Shown: piece by piece, positions 11,321 through 24,348 of the stretch | Layout of the letters: each line of letters opens with the position of its first letter | How positions within the stretch are numbered: the first letter of the stretch is position 1 | Origin: a virus | Virus record (IMG/VR): IMGVR_UViG_3300042350_004719 | Location: 1-24,348 of that record | Length of the DNA: 24,348 nt | Direction: 5' to 3' (one strand) | Program-made: the position numbers and the translations under genes | Notes under the pieces: model-generated | The model's input: the letters and a program-made list of their open reading frames with translations, nothing else | Told to the model about the DNA's origin: nothing | The model's database searches: none

Positions 11321-11565
11321 CAACTGACACACCACGAACTGATGCGGTCATGGCTTCATCAAATTGGCCATATCACATTACATTCGAGATGAAAAAACTA
11401 GAAAGAGAACTCTCCGCATCAAATGCGGAGGCCGCAAGGCTTCGGGAACAACTCGCAAGCGCCTTCGAGATCGCGCAGGAATTTCGAGCGTTCAAGGCAC
11501 TCCATTACCAGTGCAGCTGCGACATGTGCAAGAAGTTGGCATCGCTCAAAGCGGAAATTAAATAA
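11317..11565 (+). CDS. Coiled-coil protein of the TDTPRTDA family, copy 4 (short)
   Basis: This 82-residue protein begins MTTDTPRTDAVM, continues with one coiled-coil helix (KKLERELSASNAEAARLREQLASAFEIAQ) and ends with a CSCDMCKKLASLKAEIK segment whose cysteines could bind a metal. The REQLASAFEIA stretch parallels RSQLARSIEIA of copy 3, and the ends of both proteins match (LxxLKxEIK), so it is an internally deleted paralogue of copy 3. It starts at an ATGA overlap. Function unknown; a hetero-oligomeric coiled-coil assembly of the four products is an attractive inference. Confidence 0.7.
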   Translation: MTTDTPRTDAVMASSNWPYHITFEMKKLERELSASNAEAARLREQLASAFEIAQEFRAFKALHYQCSCDMCKKLASLKAEIK

Positions 11566-11570
11566 ACCAC

Positions 11571-11861
11571 ATGAACTATGAATGGGTTGCTTTCATATTA
11601 TTATTCCCTGTATCCGCAATCCTTGGATGCATATCCGCAAAATTGATGACCCACAACAAAAGAAAAACAACCAAGAACCCCATGAAAATAAAGATAAAAC
11701 TATCTTCGAATCAGGAATCAAAGATCGTCGCAAAGAGCCTGCAACAGGCGTACGACCTAAACTATGGAATGGACAGCGGGATCAACAAGGGCGACATCCA
11801 AGAACTTCAAGAGGCGCTGCGAATCGTGTTTCACTACTACACGGGAAAGACACTAAAATGA
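11571..11861 (+). CDS. N-terminally membrane-anchored small hypothetical protein
   Basis: This 96-residue protein has a hydrophobic N-terminal segment (YEWVAFILLFPVSAILGCISA) followed by a basic stretch HNKRKTTKNP, giving an N-out/C-in single-span anchor. A soluble part begins at an internal in-frame ATG at 11682 (MKIKIKLSSNQES) and resembles a small alpha/beta domain (SKIVAKSLQQAYDLNYG, DIQELQEALRIVFHYYTG). Either the anchor and soluble part are one protein, or two products are made from the same frame. The start follows the previous stop by five bases and the end overlaps the next gene by ATGA. No family recognised. Confidence 0.6.
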   Translation: MNYEWVAFILLFPVSAILGCISAKLMTHNKRKTTKNPMKIKIKLSSNQESKIVAKSLQQAYDLNYGMDSGINKGDIQELQEALRIVFHYYTGKTLK

Positions 11862-12064
11862 AAGCAACACTCACCTTCGACCTGCCAGAAGAGCAGCCAC
11901 AACACCTCGCAGCTGTCCATGGCATGGACTGGAAACTCGTAGCTTGGCGCATGAACGAGTTCCTCAGGCGCTGCAGGAAAGACGATATCAATGCGTCAGT
12001 GCAGCAGATTGAGGAGCACCTGCACGAGCAGATCGAGATGCTGGGCTTGTCGCTCGAGGAATGA
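11858..12064 (+). CDS. Small conserved-type phage protein with FDLPEE motif
   Basis: This 68-residue protein starts MKATLTFDLPEEQPQHLAAVHG, a short strand followed by helices, and continues WKLVAWRMNEFLRRCRKDD and a C-terminal acidic helix. Proteins opening with xxFxLPEEx(x)E/Q and a helical WxxxxxxxxxxLR are frequent in phage accessory regions and I believe this belongs to that loose group, but the function is unknown. The longer open frame upstream is a shadow of the preceding gene; the ATGA at 11858 decides the start. Its stop overlaps the next start by another ATGA. Confidence 0.65.
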   Translation: MKATLTFDLPEEQPQHLAAVHGMDWKLVAWRMNEFLRRCRKDDINASVQQIEEHLHEQIEMLGLSLEE

Positions 12065-12264
12065 GAAGCGATTGTCCGCAGGATTGGAGCGATTGTCCCG
12101 TGTGCTCGAGCCCGGGCCGCGTCGTGCGTCACTGCAGGATCCTGAAGCGCGGCGACATTTGTCCCACGAGGAAATTGCTCTTCATGGGAGGCTCGACCTT
12201 CAAGCGACCCACGTGGTTCAGGCGGCTGAAGTGCTGGTACGACAACTGGCTATGCGGCATCTAA
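12061..12264 (+). CDS. Small Cys-rich, basic hypothetical protein
   Basis: This 67-residue protein is rich in Cys, Arg and Trp. It opens MRSDCPQDWSDCPVCSSPG, a CPxC-like knuckle, followed by HCRILKRGDICPTRK and a C-terminal WFRRLKCWYDNW segment. Cysteines at 5, 12, 15, 25 and 34 could form a small zinc site. Basic, aromatic and metal-binding character suggests nucleic-acid contact, but nothing specific is recognised. It starts at an ATGA overlap with the upstream gene. The following 43 bases before the next ATG contain a TTGACT element but no convincing promoter. Confidence 0.55.
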   Translation: MRSDCPQDWSDCPVCSSPGRVVRHCRILKRGDICPTRKLLFMGGSTFKRPTWFRRLKCWYDNWLCGI

Positions 12265-12307
12265 ATAGCGGTTGCAATGTTGCGAAAAGTTGACTTATTG
12301 TAGTTGC

Positions 12308-12721
12308 ATGACAACTACTGACAAATCAAAAAGGCTACACAAGCAGGGTGACATTCGGGAAGACGGCAAAATATTTTTCAAATATAGTGCGCGTATGGAC
12401 GGCGCTCTTACCGAGCATTGGGTAACGACAAAGTACTTTGAAGAATACAAAAAGTACGGCGAAAAATGGAGAAAACAAAACAAAGGACTCATCCTGAGAT
12501 ACGGAGAAATTCGGAAAGAAACAAATTCTAGGTTGAAGAAAGGGAGAATCAAACTAGAGATACCAGCCGAAAGATTACGTCCAGAAGACACAAGTAAGTT
12601 GGGAATTAAACGTAGTCAAAAGAAGGCCGAGCTTCAGGCTTATCGACAACAATGTGAAGAAGCAGCCAAACAAAATCTATCGAAAGCGACGAGTAATTTG
12701 GCACCAGAATGGAATCTGTAA
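12308..12721 (+). CDS. Lys-rich hypothetical protein, last accessory gene
   Basis: This 137-residue protein is highly charged. It starts MTTTDKSKRLHKQGDIREDGKIFFKYSA, has a YFEEYKKYGEKWRKQNKG helix and ends in a basic/helical tail with QKKAELQAYRQQCEEAAKQN. The N-terminal GDIREDGKIFFKY beta-hairpin and the WVTTKYFEEY helix resemble small sequence-binding or endonuclease-associated domains of phage, but I cannot assign a family. The ATG at 12308 is preferred to an upstream TTG at 12272, because the intervening Cys-rich codons look non-coding. The gene is richer in A/T than its neighbours, which may mean later acquisition. It precedes the 1.1-kb gene-free region. Confidence 0.6.
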   Translation: MTTTDKSKRLHKQGDIREDGKIFFKYSARMDGALTEHWVTTKYFEEYKKYGEKWRKQNKGLILRYGEIRKETNSRLKKGRIKLEIPAERLRPEDTSKLGIKRSQKKAELQAYRQQCEEAAKQNLSKATSNLAPEWNL

Positions 12722-12743
12722 AGCTAAACGTGTAAATAAATAC

Positions 12744-12792
12744 ATGTTACATTGATTCAACGCGTCAGGGCTTCAGTGCTTCAAAGTAACAT
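12744..12792. repeat. 12-bp inverted repeat after the last accessory gene
   Basis: ATGTTACATTGA (12744-12755) and TCAAAGTAACAT (12781-12792) are inverted copies with one mismatch, enclosing 25 bases. A second small hairpin (AACGTGTA/TACATGTT) overlaps its left arm. No T-run follows, so a simple terminator is not obvious; a protein-binding palindrome or an RNA structure are alternatives. Confidence 0.6.
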
Positions 12793-12893
12793 CAATTAGC
12801 TCGCTTTGTTAAGTGGGAGTGGGGAAGAAAAATACGGGGGAAATGAAGTCCACTACAGCTAAGTGACTAATAGACAGGAAATTACAAACAAAA

Positions 12894-13019
12894 AAGTGGA
12901 GAAGTGTAGAAGTGCGTAAAAAAAAAACCTCGGCGGCGGCGGCGGCGGCGGCGGCGGCGGGGCCTATATCTATATATTTTCCCTACAATAATTTATATTA
13001 TTACTCCACTTCTCCACTT
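12894..13019. repeat. 13-bp perfect inverted repeat built of 8-bp tandem units, enclosing (CGG)10
   Basis: AAGTGGAGAAGTG (12894-12906) is the exact reverse complement of CACTTCTCCACTT (13007-13019). Each arm is made of tandem 8-mers: AAGTGGAG, AAGTGTAG and AAGTGCGT from 12894, and CTCCACTT twice from 13004. Between the arms lie a poly-A tract, ten CGG units and about 40 bases of A/T-rich sequence (12964-13003). The iteron plus AT-rich layout is reminiscent of replication origins. Confidence 0.8.
12931..12960 (+). repeat. (CGG)10 trinucleotide repeat
   Basis: Ten uninterrupted CGG units follow a poly-A tract. The run would give poly-Ala in one frame, which explains the spurious long ORF across it. 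Such tracts can form hairpins or slip during replication. Confidence 0.9.
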
Positions 13020-13687
13020 CCACTGGCCTTTGGCCCTGTGTCTATGCGGCTGCGCGGCGGAGTGGAGATGAAAAAATCAAGTCCACTTTACCCCACTTGT
13101 CTCTGTACAACCCCACTTCGGGTTCTCGTAACTTCTGCAGCGGTCTCCTTTGTACCAGTGTATCGGGTTTCATTGCTTCAGGGTTACAGAGTAAACCTCA
13201 TGGCTCGTCTCTGTTCAGGCGTCTCGATCATGCGCTGGGTGCTTTCTCTGATCGCGTCGCTCTCTTATGCGGCCCTTTGCCGCGTCGCTAAGGCACCCTG
13301 CGCTCGTTTTCAGTGTCGCCCTGCTGCATTGTCGCGAACCAACTTGGAAAACTCGATAGCGGGGCTTTAAACGCTTTCGGTAATCGGCGGCTCAATATTA
13401 AATTAGTTATATGCTGCATTGCTGCAGTGAATCGGTGACGCATTGTTTCGGCTCCTAACACCATGTTAATGTTTTAACGATATTATGGGTAGTGATCCAA
13501 GCGCTTCGATTACTCTGTCCGAACCTGATAATCGTCCATAACATCAGATAACCTTTGTCATGGATACTTCTCGCGTATTCGTATCACTATCTCACTACTT
13601 ACTACCTAAGTGCATCATACACACAGGGTTACCTATGTTACTCAACCATGCCATCGACGGCTCGGCGGGCGGGCTGGGCGATCGATC

Positions 13688-13741
13688 GGGCTGGGGGTGG
13701 GGGGAGGAGGAGGAGGGGGGGTAGGGGTAGGGGGAGGAGGG
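13688..13741 (+). repeat. G-rich tract with G-quadruplex potential
   Basis: At least seven runs of three or more G occur in 54 bases, including runs of 5, 6 and 7, separated by one to a few bases. This easily satisfies the G3+N1-7 quadruplex pattern on the + strand. It lies about 120 bases upstream of the small terminase start. The complementary C-rich strand would be the template strand for the late genes. Confidence 0.8.
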
Positions 13742-13763
13742 ACGCGTCCCGCCAGCGGCGCGG

Positions 13764-13800
13764 CCCCCTCAAATAGGGGGGTGGCGAAATTTTTAGAAAT
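13764..13800 (+). terminator. Possible hairpin terminator upstream of terminase
   Basis: CCCCCT (13764-13769) pairs with AGGGGG (13775-13780) around CAAAT, almost the same hairpin as the terminator at 271. The T-rich stretch begins about ten bases later (ATTTTT and then TTTTTTT at about 13803), so termination efficiency is uncertain. It could insulate the late genes from upstream transcription. Confidence 0.4.
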
Positions 13801-13859
13801 AATTTTTTTAGATTGCCTTGTCCTACCTATTCGACATAGGGTCTCCAACTGCTACACCC

Positions 13860-14420
13860 ATGCCAGTCTTAGAAAACCTCACACACGAACGATTCTGTTC
13901 CCTCATCGCCGAGACGGGCGATACGGCGGCGGTTGCATACGGAAAGGTGAATCCTACCGCCAAGGCTCCCAAGGTCTACGCGAGCAGCCTGATGAAGCGG
14001 ACAGATATCATTTCGCGCATCGCCGAGATCCGTACGGAGGTCGCCACCCGTAGCGTCGCCGTCATTGGACGAAAGCGTGAGATCCTACGTCTCATGATCG
14101 AGGGTGCGGTGCCCACCAAGGTTGTCAACCGAGCCAACGGCGTGGAGGAGACCTACGACAAGCTAGCGGCCATAGCGCTGGACGCAAAACTCGCCGGGGA
14201 ACTCTCGGACAACATTAACCTCACGGCGAGCAGCGACCTGAAACTAAACTTCACGGTTCGCGACCGCGATAGCAAAACCCTAGATGGATCAGGCGTCATG
14301 GACGCCGTACTCATTCCCGACGCAAACGACGAACCGCTAGCGCTTCCCGAGCCAGAGCCCGACGTCGAATTTGCCCACCTCGTAGATGACGACCAAACCT
14401 CCCCAGACACCAGCGCGTAA
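13860..14420 (+). CDS. Terminase small subunit
   Basis: This 186-residue protein has an N-terminal helix-turn-helix-like region (RFCSLIAETGDTAAVAYGKV, PKVYASSLMKRTDIISRIAEIR) typical of phage small terminases, which bind the packaging site. A helical oligomerisation segment (GRKREILRLMIEG, YDKLAAIALDAKLAGEL) follows, then an acidic C-terminus rich in Glu, Asp and Pro. The ATG at 13860 is chosen over an upstream in-frame TTG because the homology-like region begins just after it. Its 3' end overlaps the large subunit gene by 35 bases, the expected small-large order. It recognises phage DNA and regulates the large subunit motor. Confidence 0.8.
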   Translation: MPVLENLTHERFCSLIAETGDTAAVAYGKVNPTAKAPKVYASSLMKRTDIISRIAEIRTEVATRSVAVIGRKREILRLMIEGAVPTKVVNRANGVEETYDKLAAIALDAKLAGELSDNINLTASSDLKLNFTVRDRDSKTLDGSGVMDAVLIPDANDEPLALPEPEPDVEFAHLVDDDQTSPDTSA

Positions 14421-16272
14421 CGTAAGCCACGCCCTGAAGCTCGCTGAGGAGATCCGCAAGCAGGTCGATAGGGACGAGGAGAGGGGCATTCTTTACGGCG
14501 CTAGCCACATCCTGCGACACGCTACGGCCAACGCCAACAACGTCGTTCTCGACGTCCCCAAGGCCAAGGCGATTGTACTGCAATTTGTACAACACCTGCT
14601 CGATAAGAATCAGTTCGAGGCTGCGGCTACGATCCTATGGGGGTCTGAGGTGTACGACTGGAGACCAGAGTCGGCACGAGACACATGGCGCTGCCTGTTC
14701 AAGTACGACAAGCTACTCATTCAGGGTGCGGGAGCCATGGGCAAGTCGTTCAACGGAGCCGCGTGGTTCTACCTCGATTGGCTGAGGGATCCCTTTTATA
14801 CCTGTATCAAGGTCATCAGTCTTACCCGCGAGCACGCGGAGCGAAACATCTACGCGCACATCAAAAATTTTCACAGGTCGGCGCTAGTCAAGCCCGAGTT
14901 CCCGAAGGGCGAGGCGCTGGTCACATCGATTCAGGCCAACGAGGATTCCAAGCAGGGCATTCACCTAGTCGCAATTCCTCGCGGAGACAGCGGAGCGGGA
15001 ACGCTGCGCGGGTTCCACCCAGCACCGCGATTCGGAAAGGCGCACCCAAAGTACGGGCGGCTGTCTCGGATCAGGGTTGTCTTGGATGAGGCGGAGGAGA
15101 TCCCGGGCGGCGTCTGGGAAGGCGTAAACAACATCGCCTCCTCCATGGACGACGAGCACTTCGCTGGGCATATCAAAATTCTCGGTGCGTCAAACCCCAA
15201 GGATCGCACCAGCGACTTCGGCGCACGCTGCGAGCCCAAGAACGGGTGGGCTAGCGTTGACTGCGAGGACGACTTCGAGTGGACAAGTCGCGACGGCTTC
15301 AGGGTACTTCGCGTCGATGCATCAAAGTGCGAGAACGTCATCGAGAAGAAGATCGTCTACGCGGGATTGCAGACGTACGACGGCTACATGAACTACGCGA
15401 ATCGTGGTCACACGGCGGAATACTTCACGATGGCACGTGGCTGGTTCCCCGAGGAGGGCATAGCCATGGCCGTCATGACCCCATCGATGCTCGACAATGC
15501 CCTAGGAACCGTCCGATTCATCGGCCCAGTAGTTCCCCTCGCAGCGTTCGATCTAGCGCTTGAGGGCAACGATAGCGTCGTCTGCAGCTACGGACGCTTC
15601 GGGCTATCCGATGGCTATACGCCGCAGTCTGGGAAGTTTGTCCCCTACGAGAGTCCTAGAACCGTCCTGCAGCTCGATTCTCAAATCACCTTCCCCAAAC
15701 GCGCCACGCTCGAACAGACGACCGCGATCATCAAGTTCTGCCAGCAGATGAAGATCAGTCCCAACTGGCTGTGCGTCGATAGAACTGGCAATGGGTCGGG
15801 AATTCACGACGGGCTCTGCACGCTCTTCGGGGAGGAGGTGATGGGCGTGAACTACTCGTGGGCGGCTACTGACTCGCGCATCCTTGGAGATGACTCGCAG
15901 CTAGCGAACGAGCTGTATAGCGGAGTCGTCACCGAGCTGCTCTTCGGACTCGCGAAGTACATCGAGTTCGGGTATCTGAAGATTTCGCCCGGGTTCCGAA
16001 CCGAGGATCTCATTCGTCAGGCCACGGGGAGGAGGTACAAGCAGAAGGGCAAGGGACTCGTGCGCGTGGAGGCCAAGGCGGAGTACGTCAAGCGCACGCG
16101 CAGCAAGTCACCAGACGCGCTCGACTCCCTCTCACTACTCGTGTACCTCATGCGTCAGCGCTCGGGCGTCGCAGCCGAGATGGTAACCGACAAACCCAAG
16201 GAAAAAAGAATTAGGGAGCGACGACTCGAAAGTTTGGTAGATGCCATGTCTTATGTTGACATGTCGGAATAA
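14386..16272 (+). CDS. Terminase large subunit
   Basis: This 628-residue protein has an ATPase with Walker A GAGAMGKS (114-121), Walker B RVVLDEAEE (Asp234-Glu235) and the coupling motif GASNP. The C-terminal RNase H-like nuclease shows AAFDLAL (Asp389), WLCVDRTG (Asp465) and SPDALDSL (Asp577, Asp580). The gene drives DNA translocation into the prohead and cuts the concatemer. The first ~100 residues form an extra helical N-terminal region. It overlaps the small subunit gene, and an intrinsic terminator follows 24 bases after the stop. The start may be later, since the overlap with the small subunit is long for coupled genes, but no alternative ATG is clearly better. Confidence 0.95.
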   Translation: MTTKPPQTPARNVSHALKLAEEIRKQVDRDEERGILYGASHILRHATANANNVVLDVPKAKAIVLQFVQHLLDKNQFEAAATILWGSEVYDWRPESARDTWRCLFKYDKLLIQGAGAMGKSFNGAAWFYLDWLRDPFYTCIKVISLTREHAERNIYAHIKNFHRSALVKPEFPKGEALVTSIQANEDSKQGIHLVAIPRGDSGAGTLRGFHPAPRFGKAHPKYGRLSRIRVVLDEAEEIPGGVWEGVNNIASSMDDEHFAGHIKILGASNPKDRTSDFGARCEPKNGWASVDCEDDFEWTSRDGFRVLRVDASKCENVIEKKIVYAGLQTYDGYMNYANRGHTAEYFTMARGWFPEEGIAMAVMTPSMLDNALGTVRFIGPVVPLAAFDLALEGNDSVVCSYGRFGLSDGYTPQSGKFVPYESPRTVLQLDSQITFPKRATLEQTTAIIKFCQQMKISPNWLCVDRTGNGSGIHDGLCTLFGEEVMGVNYSWAATDSRILGDDSQLANELYSGVVTELLFGLAKYIEFGYLKISPGFRTEDLIRQATGRRYKQKGKGLVRVEAKAEYVKRTRSKSPDALDSLSLLVYLMRQRSGVAAEMVTDKPKEKRIRERRLESLVDAMSYVDMSE

Positions 16273-16296
16273 CAACAATACTTTTCAACGTAGTAA

Positions 16297-16347
16297 ACCG
16301 ATTGGGCCTCTGCACATGCACGCTATCTCTCAGTCGGTCTTCTTTTA
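16297..16347 (+). terminator. Intrinsic terminator after terminase
   Basis: ACCGATTG (16297-16304) pairs with CAGTCGGT (16331-16338) with one G.U pair, and weaker pairing extends inward. The sequence CTTCTTTTATC follows. It lies 24 bases after the terminase stop and before the tRNA genes. Confidence 0.6.
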
Positions 16348-16456
16348 TCACATATTCGCCCCATTCCCTCTCCATGATTTAAAAGTTGTGTGAAGGCCAA
16401 GGCGCGGCTTCCCGACAAGCCACAATCCACTGACGAGTGGAAGTCGGTAAATTTAT

Positions 16457-16530
16457 CGCGCGGTAGTGAAGAAGCCTCACGTTGCTTTCATACGGCAAAA
16501 ACTCTGGTGCAATTCCAGACCGCGCCACCA
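16457..16530 (+). tRNA. tRNA with CAT anticodon (tRNA-Met or lysidine-type tRNA-Ile)
   Basis: Seven-base acceptor strands CGCGCGG and CCGCGCC pair except at C1.C72, followed by A73 and encoded CCA. U8-A9 are present. The D-stem is GTGA/TCAC, the anticodon stem TTGCT/GGCAA has one G.U pair, and the loop TTCATAC gives anticodon CAT. The T-stem is TCTGG/CCAGA, with loop TGCAATT lacking the usual T55. The anticodon stem lacks the GGG/CCC of initiators despite the open 1-72 pair. Elongator Met or Ile2 (after CAT modification) are both possible. Confidence 0.75.
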
Positions 16531-16545
16531 AATAAAATTCAATTT

Positions 16546-16619
16546 TACCCTTTGGTGTAACGGTAGCACAGATCGCTTTGACCGATCTAGTCATGGTTCA
16601 AATCCATGAGGGGTAGCCA
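16546..16619 (+). tRNA. tRNA-Gln (anticodon TTG)
   Basis: A clean cloverleaf: acceptor TACCCTT/AGGGGTA (one G.U), discriminator G, encoded CCA, anticodon stem GATCG/CGATC with loop CTTTGAC (anticodon TTG), and T-arm CATGG/CCATG with canonical loop TTCAAAT. The first pair U1-A72 and G73 are bacterial glutamine identity elements. It lies 15 bases after the CAT tRNA, and the two are likely co-transcribed. Confidence 0.92.
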
Positions 16620-16667
16620 AAAATTTCCACTTGCCACGCAACACGCGTTGCATTACAAAAGCGTCTT

Positions 16668-16808
16668 ATGGGACTATATTCTAACATCCACGCAAAGAAG
16701 AAGCGCATCAAGGCTGGCAGCGGAGAACGCATGAGGAAGGCGGGATCTGCAGGAGCCCCTACGGCAAAAGCATTCAAGCAGTCCGCCAAGACCGCAAAGA
16801 AGCGATAA
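16668..16808 (+). CDS. Conserved small basic phage protein (GLYSNIHAKKKRI family)
   Basis: This 46-residue protein is dominated by Lys, Arg, Gly and Ala: MGLYSNIHAKKKRIKAGSGE followed by RMRKAGSAGAPTAKAF and a basic end. Tiny proteins with GLYxNIHAKxxRIxxGSGERMRKxGxxGAPT are recurrent in phages, often near tail or head genes, and I recognise the pattern although the function is not known to me. The stop TAA overlaps the endonuclease start (TAATG). It is too short for many gene finders, but the family match makes it one of the better-supported small genes here. Confidence 0.85.
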   Translation: MGLYSNIHAKKKRIKAGSGERMRKAGSAGAPTAKAFKQSAKTAKKR

Positions 16809-17473
16809 TGGAAAAACAAGCGGGTGTATATGAGATTGAAATTGCTGGCTATAAATACTATGGCAGTAGCATCAATATCTACGCTCGCAAACGAAACCAT
16901 ATAGCAAAACTACGATCTGGAAAACATCGCAATCAACGACTGCAAAGATGTTTTGATAAATATGGAGAAGATGCAATAGCATTCAAGACACTTGTCCTTT
17001 GCGATAAAGAATCTGTTCTCGATGAAGAGCAAAAATACTTGGACAAGAATATCGGTAAAGATAATTGTTTAAACTTTTGCAAAAGCGCATCTGCTCCAAT
17101 GGCTGGAATTAAATTTTCAGATAACCATAAAAAGAAAATGTCAGACTCGCAGGTCAGAAATAAATACATTTTTTATTATGACTGCGGCAAAGTCGAATCG
17201 TTTGATAGCTTGAAATTAGCTGGGAATAGATTCAATGTAAAAAGGGCGATTGTTTCAAAATGGTTTAAGAGAAAAGACCTTGGAAGAAAACACGGCATAC
17301 TACGATCCAGTAGGATTATAAAAGCTGAAAAAATTGGAGATGAAAATATTATCCTTCTACCTTGGCAATACAAACAAGAGCCGTGGATAGTAGCTGGAGC
17401 AACAAGCAAAAATAATTACTACAAAGAAAAAAGAAATGAAATCAAAACCCACAACAGGCAAAGCGTCAGTTAA
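16808..17473 (+). CDS. GIY-YIG homing endonuclease
   Basis: This 221-residue protein has an N-terminal GIY-YIG nuclease domain: GVY (residues 6-8), YYG (17-19), the catalytic Arg27, His31 in RKRNHIAKL, and an LDEEQKYL helix with acidic residues at 73-74 supplying the metal ligand. The C-terminal half (KYIFYYDCGKVESFDSLKLA, VKRAIVSKWFK) looks like a NUMOD1-type DNA-binding module that reads a recognition site. The gene is clearly more A/T-rich than its neighbours, a sign of recent transfer. It sits free-standing between two small phage genes, with no intron boundary seen, and overlaps the next gene by 38 bases. It probably cuts related genomes to spread itself. Confidence 0.9.
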   Translation: MEKQAGVYEIEIAGYKYYGSSINIYARKRNHIAKLRSGKHRNQRLQRCFDKYGEDAIAFKTLVLCDKESVLDEEQKYLDKNIGKDNCLNFCKSASAPMAGIKFSDNHKKKMSDSQVRNKYIFYYDCGKVESFDSLKLAGNRFNVKRAIVSKWFKRKDLGRKHGILRSSRIIKAEKIGDENIILLPWQYKQEPWIVAGATSKNNYYKEKRNEIKTHNRQSVS

Positions 17474-17681
17474 AATAGTAAAAAATCCAGAGACTGGAAG
17501 AACCAACAAGGTTTCTTACGGACAAAAAGGAGCGAATGTTGATCCGGGATCAAAACGTGCAGACGCGTACTGCGCTCGCTCCAACAAGATCAAGGGAGAC
17601 TGGCGAGACGATCCAAACTCTCCCAACAACCTGAGTCGCCGCAAGTGGAAGTGCATCGGCGGAAGAAGCAAGCGCGGATAG
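17436..17681 (+). CDS. Small basic phage protein with Gly/Lys/Cys-rich C-terminus
   Basis: This 81-residue protein starts inside the 3' end of the endonuclease gene and reads MKSKPTTGKASVKIVKNPET, then VSYGQKGANVDPGSKRADAYCARS and ends RKWKCIGGRSKRG. The PGSKRADAYCARSxKIKGDWxxDPNSPNNLSRxKWKC pattern looks like a conserved small protein motif of phages, reminiscent of cyanophage-type short basic proteins, but no function is known to me. The two cysteines and many basic residues suggest nucleic-acid or virion association. Base composition returns to the phage average within this gene. Confidence 0.7.
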   Translation: MKSKPTTGKASVKIVKNPETGRTNKVSYGQKGANVDPGSKRADAYCARSNKIKGDWRDDPNSPNNLSRRKWKCIGGRSKRG

Positions 17682-17694
17682 TTTTGATTGTTGT

Positions 17695-17724
17695 TTGACA
17701 CCCCATGCATCCCTTGATTATTTT
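17695..17724 (+). promoter_or_regulatory. Candidate promoter of the small RNA
   Basis: TTGACA (17695-17700), 18 bases, then TATTTT (17719-17724), four of six -10 matches. The 12-mer TTTGACACCCCA (17694-17705) is identical to the one at 301-312. Predicted start is at about 17731, exactly where the structured RNA begins. Confidence 0.55.
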
Positions 17725-17730
17725 AGTCGT

Positions 17731-17817
17731 CTAAACCCAGTACCGCGAAAGCCGTACAGGGGTTTAGGGGAAAAAACGCTCTCCTGCTTCCTATGAGGCA
17801 GGGGAGTTTCTTTTTTT
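17731..17817 (+). ncRNA. Candidate small non-coding RNA with GAAA-tetraloop hairpin and terminator
   Basis: CTAAACCC (17731-17738) pairs with GGGTTTAG (17760-17767). Inside, GTAC (17740-17743) pairs with GTAC (17754-17757), and a GC pair closes a GAAA tetraloop (17747-17750). A spacer GGGAAAAAACG leads to the terminator hairpin at 17779-17806. A promoter-like site starts 36 bases upstream. The result would be an ~87-nt transcript between gene blocks with no ORF. It could also be a 5' leader or attenuator for the gene at 17868. I do not recognise a known RNA family. Confidence 0.55.
17779..17817 (+). terminator. Strong intrinsic terminator of the small RNA
   Basis: A 12-bp stem with two G.U pairs (17779-17790 with 17795-17806), CTAT tetraloop, then TTTCTTTTTTT. 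It is the strongest terminator-like structure in the window and lies 50 bases before the next gene. Confidence 0.9.
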
Positions 17818-17867
17818 AAAAGATAAATGCTTGCGTCGTAGTACAATGTTGAGTAATTTTCGCGCAG

Positions 17868-18449
17868 ATGGCAAAACCCATTAACGGAATGATCCCGCCC
17901 AACGGGTGGCATTACTTTCAAAGTGATGTCAAGCTGGTTGGAGATTCGCTCGATGATTTGTATAAAGTCGTCGAGAATTTTCGTGCCAACAACTCGTATC
18001 CAGCTGGAGACGTGAAGGGGGACGTGGATGGATACATCTGCGGAAACTATCCATCGTTCTGCCATGGCGTGGACGACGTCACGATCAACCTTGTAAGCAG
18101 ACAAGCAGCGACACGCTCGGGAGAATTGCTGCAGGACGTTTCGACGTGGGCCAACAACATGCTCCGATCCAAGGAGCCCATCAAACTTGTTCAGGACGAC
18201 GAAGCGGAGCGCCGTGCCAAGATCTGCAAAGCGTGCCCGCACAACGCTAGCTGGCGATCGGGATGCATTTCATGCATCGTCAGTGCTGACCGCATCAGTG
18301 CTTCAGTGCGTCAGGCGCGTGATACGGATACCTCCAAGAAGCTGGGCGGGTGCCACTTGCTCAGGCACGACAACAGGTCAGCTGTATTCTTTGAGAAAGA
18401 AAATCTTGCAACGACTGGCGATTTGCCTACTAATTGCTGGCTAACGTAA
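17868..18449 (+). CDS. Zinc-finger protein upstream of the portal gene
   Basis: This 193-residue protein has an N-terminal segment rich in aromatic and Gly residues (PINGMIPPNGWHYFQSDVKL, then DGYICGNYPSFCHG) and a central helix (LLQDVSTWANNMLRSKEPIK). A zinc-finger pattern follows, CKAC-x9-CISC (Cys120, 123, 133, 136), with a later LGGCHLL and terminal LPTNCWL that add further possible ligands. It lies immediately before the portal gene (four-base gap), so it is co-expressed with head genes and could be a head-assembly factor or a connector component. No known family is recognised. The start follows a terminator by 50 bases, which suggests either readthrough or an unrecognised promoter. Confidence 0.65.
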   Translation: MAKPINGMIPPNGWHYFQSDVKLVGDSLDDLYKVVENFRANNSYPAGDVKGDVDGYICGNYPSFCHGVDDVTINLVSRQAATRSGELLQDVSTWANNMLRSKEPIKLVQDDEAERRAKICKACPHNASWRSGCISCIVSADRISASVRQARDTDTSKKLGGCHLLRHDNRSAVFFEKENLATTGDLPTNCWLT

Positions 18450-18453
18450 GACT

Positions 18454-20838
18454 ATGGCATCTGACATCAAACCACTTCCTCCGCGCATTACCGACGTATT
18501 TGCAAACAAGTCGGCGCGTATCGACGACCAGTCGAAGCCCAGAATACTTGGTTTGGATGTGGTAAATGCTGACAACAGCACGTCCGATACGGTCAACCCC
18601 GAGACGCTACAAGTACGTCGTACCTTTAGGGATTCACGTCAGGCGCACAGCGCTTACCGCAGGTTGAAGCAGCAGAATCTTGAGCGCAACCGCAAGAACC
18701 AGCTAATCCAAAAGAAGCTGAACCTCGAGCCACCCTACCAGAACAAGAAGTTGGAGAGCATGGGCCAGAGCTGGAGGAGCAATCGTCCTACTGGGTTCTT
18801 GTCCACCATGGTCAGTAGGATCCAGCCCCCTTTCCGAGAGGTCATCGAGACGGCTCCGACGCTCACCTACAGCAAGTACCCGCTTGAATCGGTTGACTCT
18901 GAAAACAAGACAAAGGTTTTCCGCGAAGAGATCACAAAGACGATCCGCGCATGGAAGGGACACGACGATATACTCGCTCAGACGACACACGAAAACACTT
19001 GCTTTGGATTTTGCGGTTGGGTATGGGATGACTTGCGCGATTGGAAACCTGAATTCCTAAGACAGGACTACACGTTTTTCTCGATCGAAACACCACAAGT
19101 AACTGATGCAACACCTATTTGGGCTCGTAAACGTCGCTATCAAATCTCCGAACTGCTTCCAGTGCTTGAGAAGCCTGAAATATCCGCGCTGGCGGGATGG
19201 CATATCAACAACCTCGTCACGTCTATCAACAATGCGATTCCTGCTGGACGAACTTTGGACTCAAACGACGACGCTCGTCGATACGAAGATTGGATCCGCG
19301 AAGGATCTTACGGCGCGGCTTACGAGAACGACGCGAAGTATGTTGAACTAGGCGAGATCTTCGTCAAGGAGCCTCACGGCAAAATCTCCAGATACTTGTT
19401 TGACGACAAGAGCGGAGAGGAAATCTGTACGCAGGTCGATCGCTACAACAGCATGTCCGAGTGCTTGGCACTCTTCTCCGTTGAGATTGGAAGTGGAAAC
19501 CTCATGTCTAGCCGAGGAGCTGGACGCGATCTTTACAACACGCACGTGGCGATTGAGAAGGCGCGTAACCTTGTCATCGATAACGTCTATCTCAAGGGTC
19601 TTCTTCTCCTGAAAAAGGGGCCGAATGCACGTCCCGATACCGCGCCACTTTCTGTAGCACATCCTGTTGCGTATGTTTCCGATGGATATGAAGTTATCCC
19701 GCAGCAGATTCCTGCCGATGTGGATGACTTCTTGAGGCTTGACCAGTTTGTCAGCGGACTGGCTGAGATTCAAGTTGGGACGTTCCTCCCCGGAGCGGCT
19801 ACCGAGTCTGGAGGTGGAAGAAAAACCGCGTCCGAGGTCAACCGAGTCGCCGCCATCGAGAACCAACTTCGTCAGGGAATTCTCATGCGCTGGTCTCGCC
19901 AGTACTCCAAGGGCATCGAGCGCATGCAGCGTGGAATCTGCCACCCTGAACACGTAAAGGCCGCTGCAGATCTCTATGGAATGCTGCAGCAGGTGCGTAT
20001 GGTAGACCCTTCGGCAATCTGGGCTCGCAAAGAGATTGTAGACGCCTTCAAGCGCTCAGAAATTGAGATGCCGAGATTCCTAGTTCCTTTTGAGATCGAT
20101 CAGCATCTGGATGAAGACGCCGTAGCGTGTTGCTTGGCGATGATGGATAGGAATCTCCCCCCATCCGACATCCTGCTTATGGCTTATAGTTCAGCGTCCG
20201 AGCTGCTTGTTGACGACACACTTCAGATCAATCAGATGATCGACTTGGTGGTTCAGCGCTACATCGGAAACCAGAACATCAATCAGGACGAGCTCATGAA
20301 ACTCGACCTCGCTTCCAAGGTTGGAGCTGCAAAGGCGAATGCGCTTGTGCTTCCGAAGGATCACGTCGAAGCGGTCGGCATCGAGGCAACTCGCCAGCAG
20401 GTAATCGAGCTTCAGTCCATCATGTCTGGTCAGGACATTGGAGTGTCTCCTCGTGACAATGACATCGTGCATCTTGAGACAATGACGCAGAGACTCATGC
20501 CGCTCATTGAGCAGGCTCCCGCTGGATCACTTTCACCTGAGATCATGGGGCCGCTGCAGGCCGCTGTTCAGCACTACGCGAACCACATCAAGCAGGCCGA
20601 CGCCAAGGGCGTGCATGGTCAGATTACTGGGCCATTCAAGAAGGCGCTCAACGCTGCTGTCAATCATCTCAGCGCAGGCGCTATCAAGAACGTCCCTACG
20701 GACGTGGGGCCAGCCGCTGCGATGCCCGCTATGGGTCGCTCGCGTGGGCCAGCTCCCCTTGAAATTGGAACAGAAGCATCTCAGGCTGGAATCGTTGAAA
20801 GCATAGCGACACCTCCAAAGCCACCAACTGCGGCATAA
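18454..20838 (+). CDS. Portal protein (head-tail connector)
   Basis: This 794-residue protein stands between terminase and scaffolding-type genes, the canonical portal position. It has an early helical, Arg/Gln-rich region (SAYRRLKQQNLERNRKNQLIQ), an ETAPTLTYSK segment, and a later region typical of podovirus and P22-like portals: GLAEIQVGTFLPGAATES followed by KTASEVNRVAAIENQLRQG and MRWSRQYSKGIERMQRG. The C-terminal ~200 residues are helical. Portals form a 12-mer ring that is the DNA entry and exit channel and docks terminase. The size exceeds T7-like portals (about 530) and is nearer P22-like lengths. No Walker or enzyme motif is present. Confidence 0.8.
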   Translation: MASDIKPLPPRITDVFANKSARIDDQSKPRILGLDVVNADNSTSDTVNPETLQVRRTFRDSRQAHSAYRRLKQQNLERNRKNQLIQKKLNLEPPYQNKKLESMGQSWRSNRPTGFLSTMVSRIQPPFREVIETAPTLTYSKYPLESVDSENKTKVFREEITKTIRAWKGHDDILAQTTHENTCFGFCGWVWDDLRDWKPEFLRQDYTFFSIETPQVTDATPIWARKRRYQISELLPVLEKPEISALAGWHINNLVTSINNAIPAGRTLDSNDDARRYEDWIREGSYGAAYENDAKYVELGEIFVKEPHGKISRYLFDDKSGEEICTQVDRYNSMSECLALFSVEIGSGNLMSSRGAGRDLYNTHVAIEKARNLVIDNVYLKGLLLLKKGPNARPDTAPLSVAHPVAYVSDGYEVIPQQIPADVDDFLRLDQFVSGLAEIQVGTFLPGAATESGGGRKTASEVNRVAAIENQLRQGILMRWSRQYSKGIERMQRGICHPEHVKAAADLYGMLQQVRMVDPSAIWARKEIVDAFKRSEIEMPRFLVPFEIDQHLDEDAVACCLAMMDRNLPPSDILLMAYSSASELLVDDTLQINQMIDLVVQRYIGNQNINQDELMKLDLASKVGAAKANALVLPKDHVEAVGIEATRQQVIELQSIMSGQDIGVSPRDNDIVHLETMTQRLMPLIEQAPAGSLSPEIMGPLQAAVQHYANHIKQADAKGVHGQITGPFKKALNAAVNHLSAGAIKNVPTDVGPAAAMPAMGRSRGPAPLEIGTEASQAGIVESIATPPKPPTAA

Positions 20839-20858
20839 CAACTAACCAAACTACGACC

Positions 20859-21092
20859 ATGGGCGGCGCAAATCCAACAGCAACAGAAAATTACAGAAAG
20901 TTTCAAAATCAACTTCCAGCTCAAAAAGTTGGGTATGGAGTTGGTGGTGAGATGTTGGCAAAACCAGCTTCTACTCCCGAAGCAAAAGCATCCGAAACTC
21001 CAAACTTTTTTGGACGCGATGCTAGCAAGCCCCTGAGCGCCGACGAACAAGTTGAGATGGAACTTCGCAAGAGTGAGCTCGGTAAAAAATAA
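20859..21092 (+). CDS. Small hypothetical protein after portal
   Basis: This 77-residue protein is Gly/Ala/Pro-rich in its first half (MGGANPTATENYRKFQNQLP, GVGGEMLAKP) and has a charged helical end (SADEQVEMELRKSELGKK). The start has the context ACCATGG in an A/C-rich leader. Low complexity suggests an extended or disordered virion or assembly protein. It precedes a similarly small gene and the scaffolding candidate, with three-base gaps, so all belong to one head-gene operon. No family recognised. Confidence 0.65.
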   Translation: MGGANPTATENYRKFQNQLPAQKVGYGVGGEMLAKPASTPEAKASETPNFFGRDASKPLSADEQVEMELRKSELGKK

Positions 21093-21095
21093 TTT

Positions 21096-21341
21096 ATGTG
21101 GACACAAACAGACGCGGTTAATCTTAAAGAATATCTTGGTCACTCTAGGGCCAATCTGATTCATCACTTGAAGGAAATTGTACCCGCTTTTTCCGTTGAG
21201 ATTGATTCCAAGGTAGAGGGCATTGCCCTTCGTGGAGCCTACAAAGAAGGGTTCCTCCTAGCCATTCAGCGCATCGAAGAGATGTCTGTACCCACAAGCA
21301 AACAGGACGACGCTGCAACCAGCTCGTTCGTATCCATGTAA
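21096..21341 (+). CDS. Small helical hypothetical protein
   Basis: This 81-residue protein starts MWTQTDAVNLKEYLGHSRAN and is mainly helical (LIHHLKEIVPAFSVEIDS, IALRGAYKEGFLLAIQRIEEM) with an unstructured Ser/Thr end. The leader is AAAAAATAATTT before the ATG with no Shine-Dalgarno. The RGAYKEGFLLAIQ segment resembles helical segments of small phage head proteins, but no family can be named. It is part of the portal to scaffold operon, with three bases to each neighbour. Confidence 0.65.
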   Translation: MWTQTDAVNLKEYLGHSRANLIHHLKEIVPAFSVEIDSKVEGIALRGAYKEGFLLAIQRIEEMSVPTSKQDDAATSSFVSM

Positions 21342-21344
21342 TTT

Positions 21345-22622
21345 ATGTCAAACGATACAGAAAACGACAACGTAGTACCAGAATCCAACGCCATTAACGG
21401 CATGCTTGGAGCACCATCACTCGATGCTGATCCCATCGAGGAGTCAACATCCGATCTCCTAGACTCTCTGCTCGATAGCGCGGAGGGAATTAGTAACGAG
21501 ACTTCTCCTGAAATTCCTGAAATTCCTGAAAGTGTTGAGGAAGATCTTGCCTTGGAAGAGGTTGCTCCAGTTCCCGTTGAGGAAGTCGTTCCTGAAGCAG
21601 CTCCAGAGCCGATCGCTGCTCCCGAAGTAGACATTGACCCTGAGATCTCTTCAATCCCGCAGCCCCGTAATCTTTCCGAGGCCAACCAAAACAACTGGAA
21701 GAAGCTGCAGGAGACCGCGACGAACTACAAGAAGCAGGCGGCGGAGGCCGAATATCTGCGTCAAAAAGTTCAAGAGCTTGAGCAGCGCCCAAGCCAGACG
21801 CCTCCCGACTACGACGAGCTCAAGAAGTTCCGCGCTATCTTCGATACCGAGAACGATCCCGAGTTCAAGAGCAAGTACGACGTGCCCATCGCTACCGCGA
21901 AGGAAAACATCTACAACATCCTAAAGAAGAATGGCGCAAGCGAAGACGTCATCAACTCCATCGAGTCCGCTGGTGGCCCCGACAAGATCAGTCAGGAGTG
22001 GTGGAAGAGCCAAGCCATCGACAAGCTGCCCATGATCGACGCGGAGCGCCTGAAGAAGGATCTCTTCAACGTCATCGACCTCAAGGAGGGACGCACCAAG
22101 GAGATCGGAGATACCGCCGAGAAGCGCGACGAGTTCCTTCAGTCCAGACAGACCGAGCTTGTTGAGAACTTCAAGAAGCAGAACGAAGAGATCTACAGCC
22201 ACACCGACGAGATCACCAAGGAGATTCCATGGGCTCGTTACAAGGAGATCAATCCGAACGATCCTCCCGAGGTTCAGGCCGAGATCGAGAATCACAACGC
22301 AAAGGTTCAAGATCTCTCGAACAAGTTTGAAGCCGCTCTATGGCCCAAGACCCCGCAGGAACGCGCCGATGTCGCCGCTGCTGCCTCTGGGTTCCATGTC
22401 GTTGTTGGACAACTTCGCTACGAGCAGGAGACCAAGCAGGCGATGCAGGCCAAACTTGAAGCGATGACAAAGGAGCTTACCGCGCTGAAAAACGCGGGAA
22501 GGATGCCCAAGGCTAATCCTACTCCAGCAAATGCCAAAACAAGTACAAACGTCCAAGACCGCATCAAAATGAATGCGTCCGACGCAATTGATCTTGGCCT
22601 CGATGAGGCTAGTGGCTTCTAA
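21345..22622 (+). CDS. Probable scaffolding protein
   Basis: This 425-residue protein has a highly acidic, Pro/Glu-rich, probably disordered N-terminal ~105 residues (repeats of EIPEIPESV and EEVAPVPVEEV), then a coiled coil from about residue 115 (NWKKLQETATNYKKQAAEAEYLRQKVQELEQ), and helical segments with EKRDEFLQSRQ and KKQNEEIYSHTDE. The C-terminus is basic and helix-forming (AKTSTNVQDRIKMNASDAID), the typical coat-binding end of scaffolding proteins. Position after portal and before (expected) capsid genes supports scaffolding. Alternative: a decoration or tail-completion coiled-coil protein. The major capsid gene is not seen immediately downstream. Confidence 0.65.
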   Translation: MSNDTENDNVVPESNAINGMLGAPSLDADPIEESTSDLLDSLLDSAEGISNETSPEIPEIPESVEEDLALEEVAPVPVEEVVPEAAPEPIAAPEVDIDPEISSIPQPRNLSEANQNNWKKLQETATNYKKQAAEAEYLRQKVQELEQRPSQTPPDYDELKKFRAIFDTENDPEFKSKYDVPIATAKENIYNILKKNGASEDVINSIESAGGPDKISQEWWKSQAIDKLPMIDAERLKKDLFNVIDLKEGRTKEIGDTAEKRDEFLQSRQTELVENFKKQNEEIYSHTDEITKEIPWARYKEINPNDPPEVQAEIENHNAKVQDLSNKFEAALWPKTPQERADVAAAASGFHVVVGQLRYEQETKQAMQAKLEAMTKELTALKNAGRMPKANPTPANAKTSTNVQDRIKMNASDAIDLGLDEASGF

Positions 22623-22627
22623 AGTAT

Positions 22628-23638
22628 ATGCCTGATCCCATCATCACTCCCCTAGTAAACGTAACTGCTAGGGCACTGGAGTCGTTCAACCCCATGGGCG
22701 GAACGATCGTAGATCAACCTCTGTCAGCTCAGAGGCTTAAACTCTCCCCGAAGGCCGAGGCTCCTGAAGACGTTGAAGAGGAAACGCCAATTGAAGTCGA
22801 AGAAGACGACTTCGAGTTTGATTCGATCGAACCGATTGTTGAGAAGGCACCTGAACCAGAGGTTGTTGTGGTGGAGAAGAAGAAACCCACCAAGAAGGCT
22901 AAGAATCCTATCATCGAGACGCGCTCCAAGGAGGGACTGCCCTCGTACCGCTGCGAGTTTGAAGGCAGGGATATTTTTGTGGGTTTCCCATGCTACAAGA
23001 CAACCAATCCAGTTACCTGTTTTTCTCTCATCGCAATGGCGCTGGATTTTGGCCGTGACAAAATTCGTTTTGATATGGCGATCGGCGATAGCAAGATCGA
23101 ACACGCACGCAATCGACTGGCTCACAAGTTTCTGGAAACTGACGCCAAGTGGATGTTGATGATCGACGACGACATCATTCCATGTATCGGAAGACCCGAA
23201 TGGTCAAAGTACTGGGTTCAGAATCTCAGAAATGTTCCTGAACTGCCCTTAAAACGTCACGTTCTTCACAGGCTAATGGGTGCTGGTAAAACCCTAGTGG
23301 GAGCTTCGTACTTCGGAAGGCAGGAAGGGGGAGCACTTATGGCTAGCGATCAGTCACTTGTCCCTCGCGCACGTGCGTACGAAGACGCTGTAGTTGAGGT
23401 GGATTGGGTAGCTACAGGCTGCATGCTAGTCCACCGAAAGGTATTTGAAGACATTCGTGAAAAGTTCGGCGACGAGCTGAAGATCGAAGTTCCAGACTAC
23501 GACTACGATTACTTTCGTCCGTTTGATAGCGCACACGGCGAGGACGTTTCGTTCTGCAAACGTGCGAAGCAAGCGGGACATCAACCCCACTTGGACTTGG
23601 GTCTCCCAGTATCACACTTGGGGTACAAGACGTATTAA
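22628..23638 (+). CDS. GT-A glycosyltransferase with acidic N-terminal extension
   Basis: This 336-residue protein has about 100 residues of acidic then Lys/Val-rich linker (EEETPIEVEEDDFEFDSIEP, then KKKPTKKAKNP) followed by a catalytic domain. It carries IFVGFPCYKTTNPVTCFSL at the nucleotide-sugar-binding start, KWMLMIDDDIIP with the metal-binding Asp180-Asp182, and a GEDVSFCKRA motif (Glu305-Asp306) like the acceptor-site ED of GT2/GT62-like enzymes. It likely transfers a sugar, but the acceptor is unknown. The N-terminal extension may tether it to an assembling virion. It follows the scaffolding candidate directly, six bases apart, and looks like part of the late operon. Confidence 0.8.
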   Translation: MPDPIITPLVNVTARALESFNPMGGTIVDQPLSAQRLKLSPKAEAPEDVEEETPIEVEEDDFEFDSIEPIVEKAPEPEVVVVEKKKPTKKAKNPIIETRSKEGLPSYRCEFEGRDIFVGFPCYKTTNPVTCFSLIAMALDFGRDKIRFDMAIGDSKIEHARNRLAHKFLETDAKWMLMIDDDIIPCIGRPEWSKYWVQNLRNVPELPLKRHVLHRLMGAGKTLVGASYFGRQEGGALMASDQSLVPRARAYEDAVVEVDWVATGCMLVHRKVFEDIREKFGDELKIEVPDYDYDYFRPFDSAHGEDVSFCKRAKQAGHQPHLDLGLPVSHLGYKTY

Positions 23639-23639
23639 G

Positions 23640-24203
23640 ATGAAAAAGAAGATCTACGCTTACTACGAGTCGATTCCTTCCATACGTCAGGAGGAAGAGT
23701 TCGCCTGCTCCAATCTCTGGAAAGGATCTTGGGAGAGTAATGGATGGGAATGCAACATGCTGAACAAGACGCACGCCGCAGTCAGTCCGCTATTCAGGTC
23801 TTTGATGGGTAGATTTTTAAAGTACGAAGGAATAGCTCCATCCGCCATGGCTAGGTTTTCTAGGTGGTGCGCCCTGCAAGCTGCAGGAGGCGGCTGGATG
23901 AGTGACTACGACGTTTTGAATTTAGGATTTACTCCTTCTCTGGCAACGGAGATCGAGTCTGTGCATCCATTGCACATGGTGGCGGGGAAGCGTTCGCATA
24001 TTTTTTATGCGACACAGGAGAAGGCCGAGGAGGTGATTGGGAGCTTCATTGCGAAAGAAATTCTTAGCAATGGGGCTCCCATCCCCGAATCGGAGATCGT
24101 TGATTGCAAAGTGTTTTTTCCAACATTCGATAATTTGTTTCACCCTGAGCGAGATGGAGAGCTAACTCGATCTCAACAAATGGTTCAGAAAATTTCTAAC
24201 TAG
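23640..24203 (+). CDS. GT32-like glycosyltransferase (DXD-containing sugar transferase)
   Basis: This 187-residue protein starts MKKKIYAYYESIPSIRQEEE (the ATG at 23640 is preferred; the open frame extending upstream is a shadow of the previous gene). It has FSRWCALQAAGGGWMSDYDVLNLG, which matches the RxxxLxxxGGxYxDxD sugar-binding core of the GT32/OCH1-like and toxin-glycosyltransferase group, with Asp89 and Asp91 as the DXD pair. Proteins of this kind in phages are rarely characterised; a role in modifying virion or host surface glycans is plausible. It is placed between two other glycosyltransferase-like genes, suggesting one glycan pathway. Its stop is followed after 15 bases by the next start. 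Confidence 0.75.
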   Translation: MKKKIYAYYESIPSIRQEEEFACSNLWKGSWESNGWECNMLNKTHAAVSPLFRSLMGRFLKYEGIAPSAMARFSRWCALQAAGGGWMSDYDVLNLGFTPSLATEIESVHPLHMVAGKRSHIFYATQEKAEEVIGSFIAKEILSNGAPIPESEIVDCKVFFPTFDNLFHPERDGELTRSQQMVQKISN

Positions 24204-24218
24204 TTCCACGTAGAACAA

Positions 24219-24348
24219 ATGGAATCCCCCTTCTCCAGACAGGTAATAGTGCTGCACCAAGGTCATATTGGTGACATCATTGCATTCATACCTATCTACA
24301 GAAAACTAGGAGCGACTAGGCTTTTAGTTACTGACGCGTCGTGGGGAG
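24219..24348 (+). CDS. Glycosyltransferase-like protein, GT9-type start (3' truncated by window edge)
   Basis: The first 43 codons read MESPFSRQVIVLHQGHIGDI, then IAFIPIYRKLGATRLLVTDASWG, and the frame is open at the window end. A Q/R-x-GxIGDIxxxxP motif followed by a short helix and a second strand LLVTDAS is the typical opening of ADP-heptose-type (GT9) and related GT-B glycosyltransferases. If so, this is the third glycosyltransferase in a row. The DNA gap before it contains a near-palindrome GTTCCACGTAGAAC. The assignment rests on a short stretch and needs the rest of the gene. Confidence 0.5.
   Translation, partial: MESPFSRQVIVLHQGHIGDIIAFIPIYRKLGATRLLVTDASWG

Follow-up and report, generated by a model that had tools for sequence, protein, structure and literature searches.

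A small-RNA gene is predicted in a phage genome, consisting of a promoter-like site, a nested hairpin with an internal C-C mismatch, a short linker and a terminator hairpin with a U-rich tail. The window, meaning the whole stretch of DNA analysed, is a 24,348-base virus record, and the RNA found in it belongs to a family of 17 distinct sequences (window included) from 19 phage records; the window's own RNA sequence is also carried by two other records. Judged from the sequences, the unit very probably has the form of an autonomous phage small-RNA gene, with a promoter-like site, a structured RNA of ~87-97 nt and varied loci. The whole explanation proposed here, a small-RNA gene whose product would act as a protein decoy, is given a probability of roughly 0.42.

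The features of the window and of related loci are collected in Table 1. The first-pass annotation, made from the letters of the window, had described a TTGACA/TATTTT element with an 18-base spacer, a nested stem closed by a GC-bounded GAAA tetraloop, and an 11-base spacer leading into a 12-bp terminator stem with a T-run; all of these are present (17695-17724, 17731-17767 and 17768-17817, respectively). The C-C mismatch and the recurrence in other phages with compensatory changes were absent from that annotation. The RNA size of ~87 nt and the start near 17731 are predictions. The TTGACA-18-TATTTT site scored 10/12, the top plus-strand promoter-like score in 9000-24348, where one minus-strand site ties with it; as 16 promoter-like sites were found in this region vs 11.7 expected from shuffles, a single such site proves little. 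The terminator (17779-17817) ranked first among terminator-like sites, of which 23 were found vs 17.5 expected. The minimum free energy of the RNA was -45.7 kcal/mol (z -6.54) and none of 200 shuffles was equally stable; the fold of the RNA in the window is beyond chance. The first-pass annotation had also stated that no ORF covers the element, and this holds for plus-strand ORFs of at least 50 aa; on the minus strand, an ORF at 17718-18242 overlaps the RNA and is antisense to the 193-aa gene, and it is regarded as spurious.

Table 1. Coordinates of the predicted small RNA, its parts, its neighbours in the window and the abiF RNAs of related records (window positions unless a locus is named).
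Feature	Position	Strand	Basis or remark
-35 hexamer TTGACA	17695..17700	+	promoter scan and family pattern
-10 hexamer TATTTT, 18-nt spacer to -35	17719..17724	+	promoter scan and family pattern
Predicted small RNA, ~87 nt: hairpin 1, linker, terminator hairpin, U-rich tail	17731..17817	+	fold, covariance model
Hairpin 1, whole	17731..17767	+	fold, family alignment
Hairpin 1 outer stem, CTAAACCC with GGGTTTAG	17731-17738 / 17760-17767	+	
Hairpin 1 inner stem, GTAC with GTAC	17740-17743 / 17754-17757	+	
Hairpin 1 1x1 C-C mismatch	C17744 / C17753	+	
Hairpin 1 tip, 2-bp GC/GC stem closing GAAA tetraloop	loop 17747-17750	+	
Linker GGGAAAAAACG, 11 nt; GGAAA part conserved	17768..17778	+	column counts of alignment A5
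Terminator stem-loop, 12 bp; CUCUCC/GGGGAG base invariant, upper half covaries	17779-17790 / 17795-17806	+	
Terminator T-rich tract TTTCTTTTTTT	17807..17817	+	sequence, terminator scan
Upstream neighbour, 81-aa protein	17436..17681	+	weak match to PHROG 10346, a PHROG of unknown function
Downstream neighbour, 193-aa conserved phage protein	17868..18449	+	no Pfam or PHROG match
Promoter-like site of 193-aa gene, TTGCGT-17-TAATTT, 3' of RNA	17831..17859	+	by eye in alignment A1, weak
Variable island, terminase gene to 193-aa gene: tRNA-Met, tRNA-Gln, GIY-YIG homing endonuclease, small genes, RNA	16272..17868	.	gene and tRNA calls
abiF RNA	L115:5915-5951	+	Rfam, above cut-off
abiF RNA	L106:6150-6186	+	Rfam, above cut-off
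abiF RNA copy, 30.2 bits, below Rfam cut-off 37	L152 ~1501-1543 (record of L103)		Rfam

The window carries phage genes by PHROG matches (exonuclease, DNA polymerase, terminase and homing endonuclease), together with tRNA-Met and tRNA-Gln. Its 794-aa protein is the presumed portal from gene order, and Pfam gave no match to it. The presumed portal, terminase and primase had no tblastn match among 50,697 phage records, the tblastn matches of the DNA polymerase and endolysin in phage records were remote only, and no convincing DNA relatives of the window were found among annotated phages and plasmids. The protein encoded at 2743-3612 matches PHROG 842 (beta-glucosyl-HMC-alpha-glucosyltransferase, E 4e-50), which suggests that DNA glucosylation or another sugar transfer is possible. 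The motif TPRTDA was observed near the start of several predicted proteins at 9688-11565, and also in the 81-aa gene adjoining the RNA in L013, L015 and L111.

Relatives of the RNA were reached by three routes. Seven related loci were obtained through the 193-aa neighbour protein; an RNA unit with an altered hairpin was present at the equivalent place in L006 (same record as L010), and L004 and L005 (193-aa protein identity 97% and 94%) were without the unit. The second route was pattern searches of viral_contigs, and the third was a covariance model, R1, built from six type-B sequences with the window's sequence and type left out. R1 matched the window with 56.1 bits (E 4.5e-14) and L097 with E 2.0e-14, and also found L014 and L016; the type of these last three is likewise outside the model. 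Over 93 entries (92 distinct records), R1 identified 15 carriers with one copy each and had no match in 77 of the 92 records searched, many of them fragments; weaker minus-strand matches over the terminator were seen in some carriers. Members L145-L148 were added by pattern search after the R1 record search. The 17 copies share a mean pairwise identity of 77%, with a minimum of 61%, and a further covariance model, R2, gave nothing above 19.3 bits over 33 non-member loci. Pattern matches judged to be chance were L012 (1 of 4 rows), L098-L101, L104, L105, L107 and L108 (8 of 14 rows), L109, L110, L112 and L113 (4 of 14 rows) and L149 (1 of 19 rows). The exact search patterns bias members so found toward an invariant CUCUCC/GGGGAG base, and some also toward the GGAAA linker; both elements were present in all ten members that can be reached without a pattern (window, L010, L013, L014, L015, L016, L097, L102, L103 and L106).

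The shape of the RNA is conserved by paired changes. Because the inner stem was misplaced when both types were first aligned with MAFFT, the model was built from type B alone, with the other sequences aligned to it. In the resulting alignment, A5 (17 sequences), whose pair counts lean toward the structure because it was fitted to the model, 95.5% of cells are paired and both partners have changed in 12 of the 28 pairs (46 cells), a level of covariation reached by none of 500 shuffles; with the partner slid by 1-3 columns, 41-56% of cells were paired. A search for covariation in homologues had been proposed by the first-pass annotation, and the compensatory changes it asked about occur in both hairpins. 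Hairpin 1 alone has 95.8% of cells paired (slid controls 25-47%) and two-sided changes in 6 of 12 pairs, its count of further pair types being unexceptional (61 of 500 shuffles). In the terminator (helix 3), 100% of cells are paired, with all 12 pairs formed in all 17 copies and four of them changed on both sides, and the T-rich tail that follows is visible in the family alignment. Hairpin 1 and the terminator were also recovered by unsupervised RNAalifold. With 80.6% of cells paired, the outermost stem, P1, is weak; RNAalifold favours pairing of the linker with the U-tail there, and several type-B copies pair linker and U-tail rather than closing P1; P1 was not relied on.

Several of these changes can be read without the model. 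The inner stem GUAC/GUAC of the window type becomes GUGC/GCAC in L147 and GAGU/GCUC in L145, and UGC/GCA in the terminator becomes UAC/GUA in L097 and L147; the upper stem of the terminator is rebuilt in L102, L103, L106, L146 and L148. Both mismatched Cs, as well as ACC before and GGG after the inner stems, are invariant in 17 of 17 copies. The same is true of CUCUCC/GGGGAG with its internal U-G pair, an invariance partly built in by the search patterns. The hairpin loops are conserved neither in sequence nor in size (GAAA, GCAA, GUAA, CUUGU and UUUAACUA), and the linker varies in length among copies. Fold z-scores of all 17 copies range from -3.3 to -6.6; one of 200 shuffles of L013 folds equally well, and the minimum-energy fold of L016 is without hairpin 1, its centroid keeping the inner stems.

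The RNA is accompanied by its own sigma-70-type promoter-like site and occurs in different surroundings. The pattern TTGN3-N18-TAN3T lies directly 5' of the RNA in 15 of 17 copies vs 31 of 6482 background 49-nt windows. L014 and L016 are the copies without the canonical pattern; in the promoter's stead, an 11-bp inverted repeat, TGCACACTACA...TGTAGTGTGCA, starts inside TTGCAC (L014:446-476 and L016:1576-1606, one position wobbling in L016), which is possibly an operator or an extra hairpin. Just 5' of the promoter in L103 (~1806-1877), a tRNA-like sequence, GTTGGATC...GTTCAAATCCCACTCCAACTC, was observed, to which neither ARAGORN nor Rfam gave a tRNA call. Four settings were distinguished. In the window and L010, the RNA precedes the 193-aa gene with a gap of 50 nt. 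Ten copies precede a ParB-like gene, itself upstream of the 193-aa gene, with a gap of 32 or 88 nt. In L013, L015, L102 and L111, the RNA follows a glycosyl-hydrolase-108 endolysin among lysis genes, and an 81-aa gene begins 37 nt after it in L013, L015 and L111; in L102, the 81-aa gene was found by tblastn and is absent from the ORF table. L145 stands alone in the fourth setting. The promoter-like site of the 193-aa gene in the window has only 6/12 consensus matches and was missed by the promoter scan, and a similar sequence is present in L006 as well as in L004 and L005, the last two lacking the RNA. A conserved inverted repeat, ATAGTCTAA...TTAGACTAT (L115:6329-6362 and equivalents), lies between the RNA and the ParB-like gene; it is retained in L056 and is likely a control region of the ParB-like gene.

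Comparison across the settings points to movement of the unit. For nine copies from four settings (28 cross-setting pairs), the RNA aligned with z 8.7-52, vs z -1.4 to 2.8, near chance, for the flanks. L056 is an empty site, in which promoter, RNA and terminator are missing as a block and both flanks are present; its ParB-like protein and that of L115 share 94.6% identity. The RNAs of L013 and L115 are 93% identical. The lineage of the lysis-gene setting is remote from the window, with 23% identity of the portal (L102 and L013) and 25% of the terminase (L102 only), and L115 belongs to the window's lineage (terminase 70%). From the conservation of the RNA across settings, the empty site and the 93% identity between remote lineages, we infer transfer of the RNA gene from phage to phage as a single unit.

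In the window's lineage, the RNA is part of a variable island that separates the terminase gene from the 193-aa gene. Among 80 loci fetched via the presumed portal, both genes were visible in 74; 49 of these had at most 250 nt between the two genes, and the other 25 had 600-2923 nt. In the seven distinct RNA carriers that could be measured, the interval was 1599-3132 nt. The cargo of the island includes tRNAs, GIY-YIG and HNH endonucleases, the ParB-like protein, the small RNA and, in L115 and L106, an abiF RNA (RF03085; 43.8 and 41.9 bits vs the Rfam cut-off of 37). In L115, the abiF RNA lies ~280 nt upstream of the small RNA and has a TTGACG-17-TATCTT promoter-like site from 5873. The stem of the abiF RNA varies (CCUUUC/GAAAGG and CCCAUC/GAUGGG). 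All records of the 17 carriers, many of them fragments, were searched, and only these two had an abiF RNA above cut-off, with L103 as a third, sub-threshold case. AbiF belongs to Abi_2, and the 14 records tested for Abi_2 proteins had none; the orphan phage abiF RNA is a possible AbiF decoy. A second conserved non-coding element was observed in the same island (alignment A7; L056:2461-2530, L103:1709-1806, L004:2781-2866, L021:2874-2968 and others). It consists of a 10-bp stem enclosing variable hairpins and a conserved AGCGACCUGA, with 110 of 110 cells paired and two pairs changed on both sides, a pair count within that of shuffles (287 of 500), and without an Rfam match in the loci scanned. 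The window at 16347-16402, just 3' of the terminase gene, resembles the 5' part of this element (nhmmer E ~1e-4).

None of the 17 copies matches Rfam 15 at the family cut-offs, and the window gave two tRNAs only. A permissive Rfam scan of 17690-17830 returned eight matches, all sub-threshold, the best being the PyrG leader (21.2 bits, terminator only), the PyrR binding site over the whole length (20.5 bits vs a cut-off of 54, E 0.52) and BSnc120 (16.1 bits); identity with a known family was rejected. RF03085 did not match 17690-17830 at E up to 10, nor the window record at E up to 0.1. In the literature, searched by topic rather than by sequence and with partial coverage, no title among the matches listed was recognised as being about the RNA. 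The terminator pattern was also searched over bacterial genome_contigs, where six of six matches were non-members and no copy was found beside a toxin. R2 found nothing in 398 genomes of the phylum of Aeromonas media, a weak search in which only 10 candidates per genome were scored; a 32.5-bit match in one bacterial genome was essentially the terminator alone and was rejected. The RNA would represent a new family of phage small RNA, a known kind of molecule. The proposal of the first-pass annotation, an autonomous small RNA of no known family, is well supported by the covariation, the promoter-like site in 15 of 17 copies and the absence of Rfam matches.

The same annotation had offered a leader or attenuator of the next gene as an alternative. 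Here, transcription would start at the promoter and mostly stop at the terminator, with signal-dependent read-through into the downstream gene. A gene in the same direction follows, the gaps are short and constant within settings (32/88, 37 and 50 nt), the PyrR binding site, which is an attenuator, matches over the whole length, though below threshold, and RCd22, the RNA of AbiF, is described as having two modes of action, one as a terminator leader and one in trans (PMC12373285). Constant gaps within one setting may, however, reflect simple descent, and the downstream gene differs among the four settings (193-aa, ParB-like or 81-aa), whereas the downstream gene and its 5' region persist in the sites without the unit (L056, L004 and L005). 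Inspection of the 17 folds gave no convincing antiterminator pairing; the candidate pairing of linker GGGGA with UCUCC was dropped, being poorly formed, by eye, in type B and L145. A leader function is disfavoured and considered improbable, and the sequences are best read as a small-RNA gene that is autonomous and moves horizontally, not as the leader of one particular gene. Still less probable is a strong bidirectional terminator or insulator with a stabilising hairpin between gene blocks and no RNA function. It would fit the A- and T-tracts that flank the terminator and the weak minus-strand scores there (up to 25.1 bits), but a terminator needs neither the covariation nor the invariant C-C mismatch of the upstream hairpin, and a promoter-like site precedes that hairpin in 15 of 17 copies.

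If the unit is a small-RNA gene, its product might pair in trans with host or phage mRNAs through the unpaired purine-rich linker (GGGAAA...), the hairpins providing stability and termination. The unit shares its own promoter-like site and U-rich terminator tail with typical bacterial regulatory sRNAs, and the conserved GGAAA linker, present in all ten copies that can be reached without a GGAAA pattern, could be a base-pairing seed. Against this, hairpin 1 is kept by compensatory change and an invariant mismatch, beyond the needs of a stabiliser, the linker varies in length and is predicted to pair with the U-tail in several copies, and the phages sharing the RNA are remote, so that a common mRNA target is not obvious; we regard base pairing as unlikely, though the strongest of the alternatives. 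A virion structural or packaging RNA, or a modulator of host RNA polymerase or ribosome without an anti-defence role, would likewise depend on protein binding, and in the window the RNA sits between the terminase gene and the presumed portal gene. This is a rather remote prospect, less so than an insulator, as the RNA adjoins lysis genes in other phages and 77 of 92 records (many of them fragments) had no match, L004 and L005 with their 94-97% identical 193-aa neighbours included; its absence from these near relatives and from most records indicates that the RNA is dispensable.

Protein binding in trans is considered at least as likely as gene regulation; the shape and the internal C-C mismatch are kept while the loops change, which suggests binding by a protein. 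Under the proposed decoy mechanism, the RNA gene would be transcribed by host RNA polymerase upon infection and the RNA would act in trans. A protein would recognise the folded hairpin 1, the linker and the terminator base, rather than the RNA acting through a loop seed. The bound protein would probably be the host's, possibly a defence nuclease or a toxin controlled by an RNA antitoxin, and the RNA would occupy or inhibit it, like the phage pseudo-ToxI and Racr RNAs. A counter-defence role is suggested by the accessory character of the island and by the orphan antitoxin RNA found there. Against the decoy explanation, the RNA also occurs outside the island (after lysis genes in L013, L015, L102 and L111, and elsewhere in L145), and the unit precedes a same-direction gene wherever the neighbour was identified, as a leader would. 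Occupation or inhibition of a host defence protein in trans, argued by analogy, is put forward tentatively, at somewhat less than even odds.

The closest comparison is with the abiF RNA (RF03085; RCd22/AbiFr) of the AbiF type III-like toxin-antitoxin system, which similarly has a promoter, a structured RNA of ~100 nt and a Rho-independent terminator. The abiF RNA is reported as the antitoxin of AbiF, binding it in trans (PMC12373285, PMC12737573), and RCd22 as acting in trans by protein binding (PMC12373285). The phage RNA, by contrast, has one nested hairpin with a C-C mismatch, neither abiF motifs nor a match to RF03085, and no recognisable downstream toxin gene. It also differs from type III toxin-antitoxin RNAs, as its downstream genes, in the settings where they were typed, are the 193-aa, ParB-like or 81-aa gene and no toxin, and from their tandem-repeat form, with one copy per record searched. 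Pseudo-ToxI of phage PhiTE is described as a phage-borne non-coding RNA by which a host suicide system is evaded (PMC3475682). ToxI is built of repeats, whereas the present RNA is a single nested hairpin, and no ToxI family was among the permissive Rfam matches. Racr anti-CRISPRs (solitary repeat units) are described as small non-coding phage RNAs with their own promoter that mimic a defence RNA (PMC10651486). No CRISPR-repeat family was among the permissive Rfam matches of 17690-17830. Rfam holds CRISPR-repeat families, and a long hairpin with a C-C mismatch is, to our knowledge, no known CRISPR-repeat shape. The phage regulatory sRNAs covered in a review (PMC12197685) are likewise small phage RNAs with a promoter and an intrinsic terminator. 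The present family differs from them in having no Rfam match and in being defined by covariation across metagenome phages. We know of few phage small RNAs defined by comparable comparative evidence.

With its promoter-like site, structure, terminator, empty site and signs of transfer, the RNA gene can be cloned and tested as is. It is doubtful, though conceivable, that the RNA is the first representative of a new class of anti-defence RNA genes in phages, a mobile RNA moron inactivating an RNA-controlled host defence protein, in an island that would collect such RNAs (this RNA, the orphan abiF RNA and at least one further structured RNA). The adjoining orphan abiF RNAs make the idea of antitoxin RNAs being collected by phages directly testable. 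If the RNA is a decoy, there should be a host defence protein under the control of a still undescribed RNA, and the cellular counterpart of the phage RNA would reveal that defence system.
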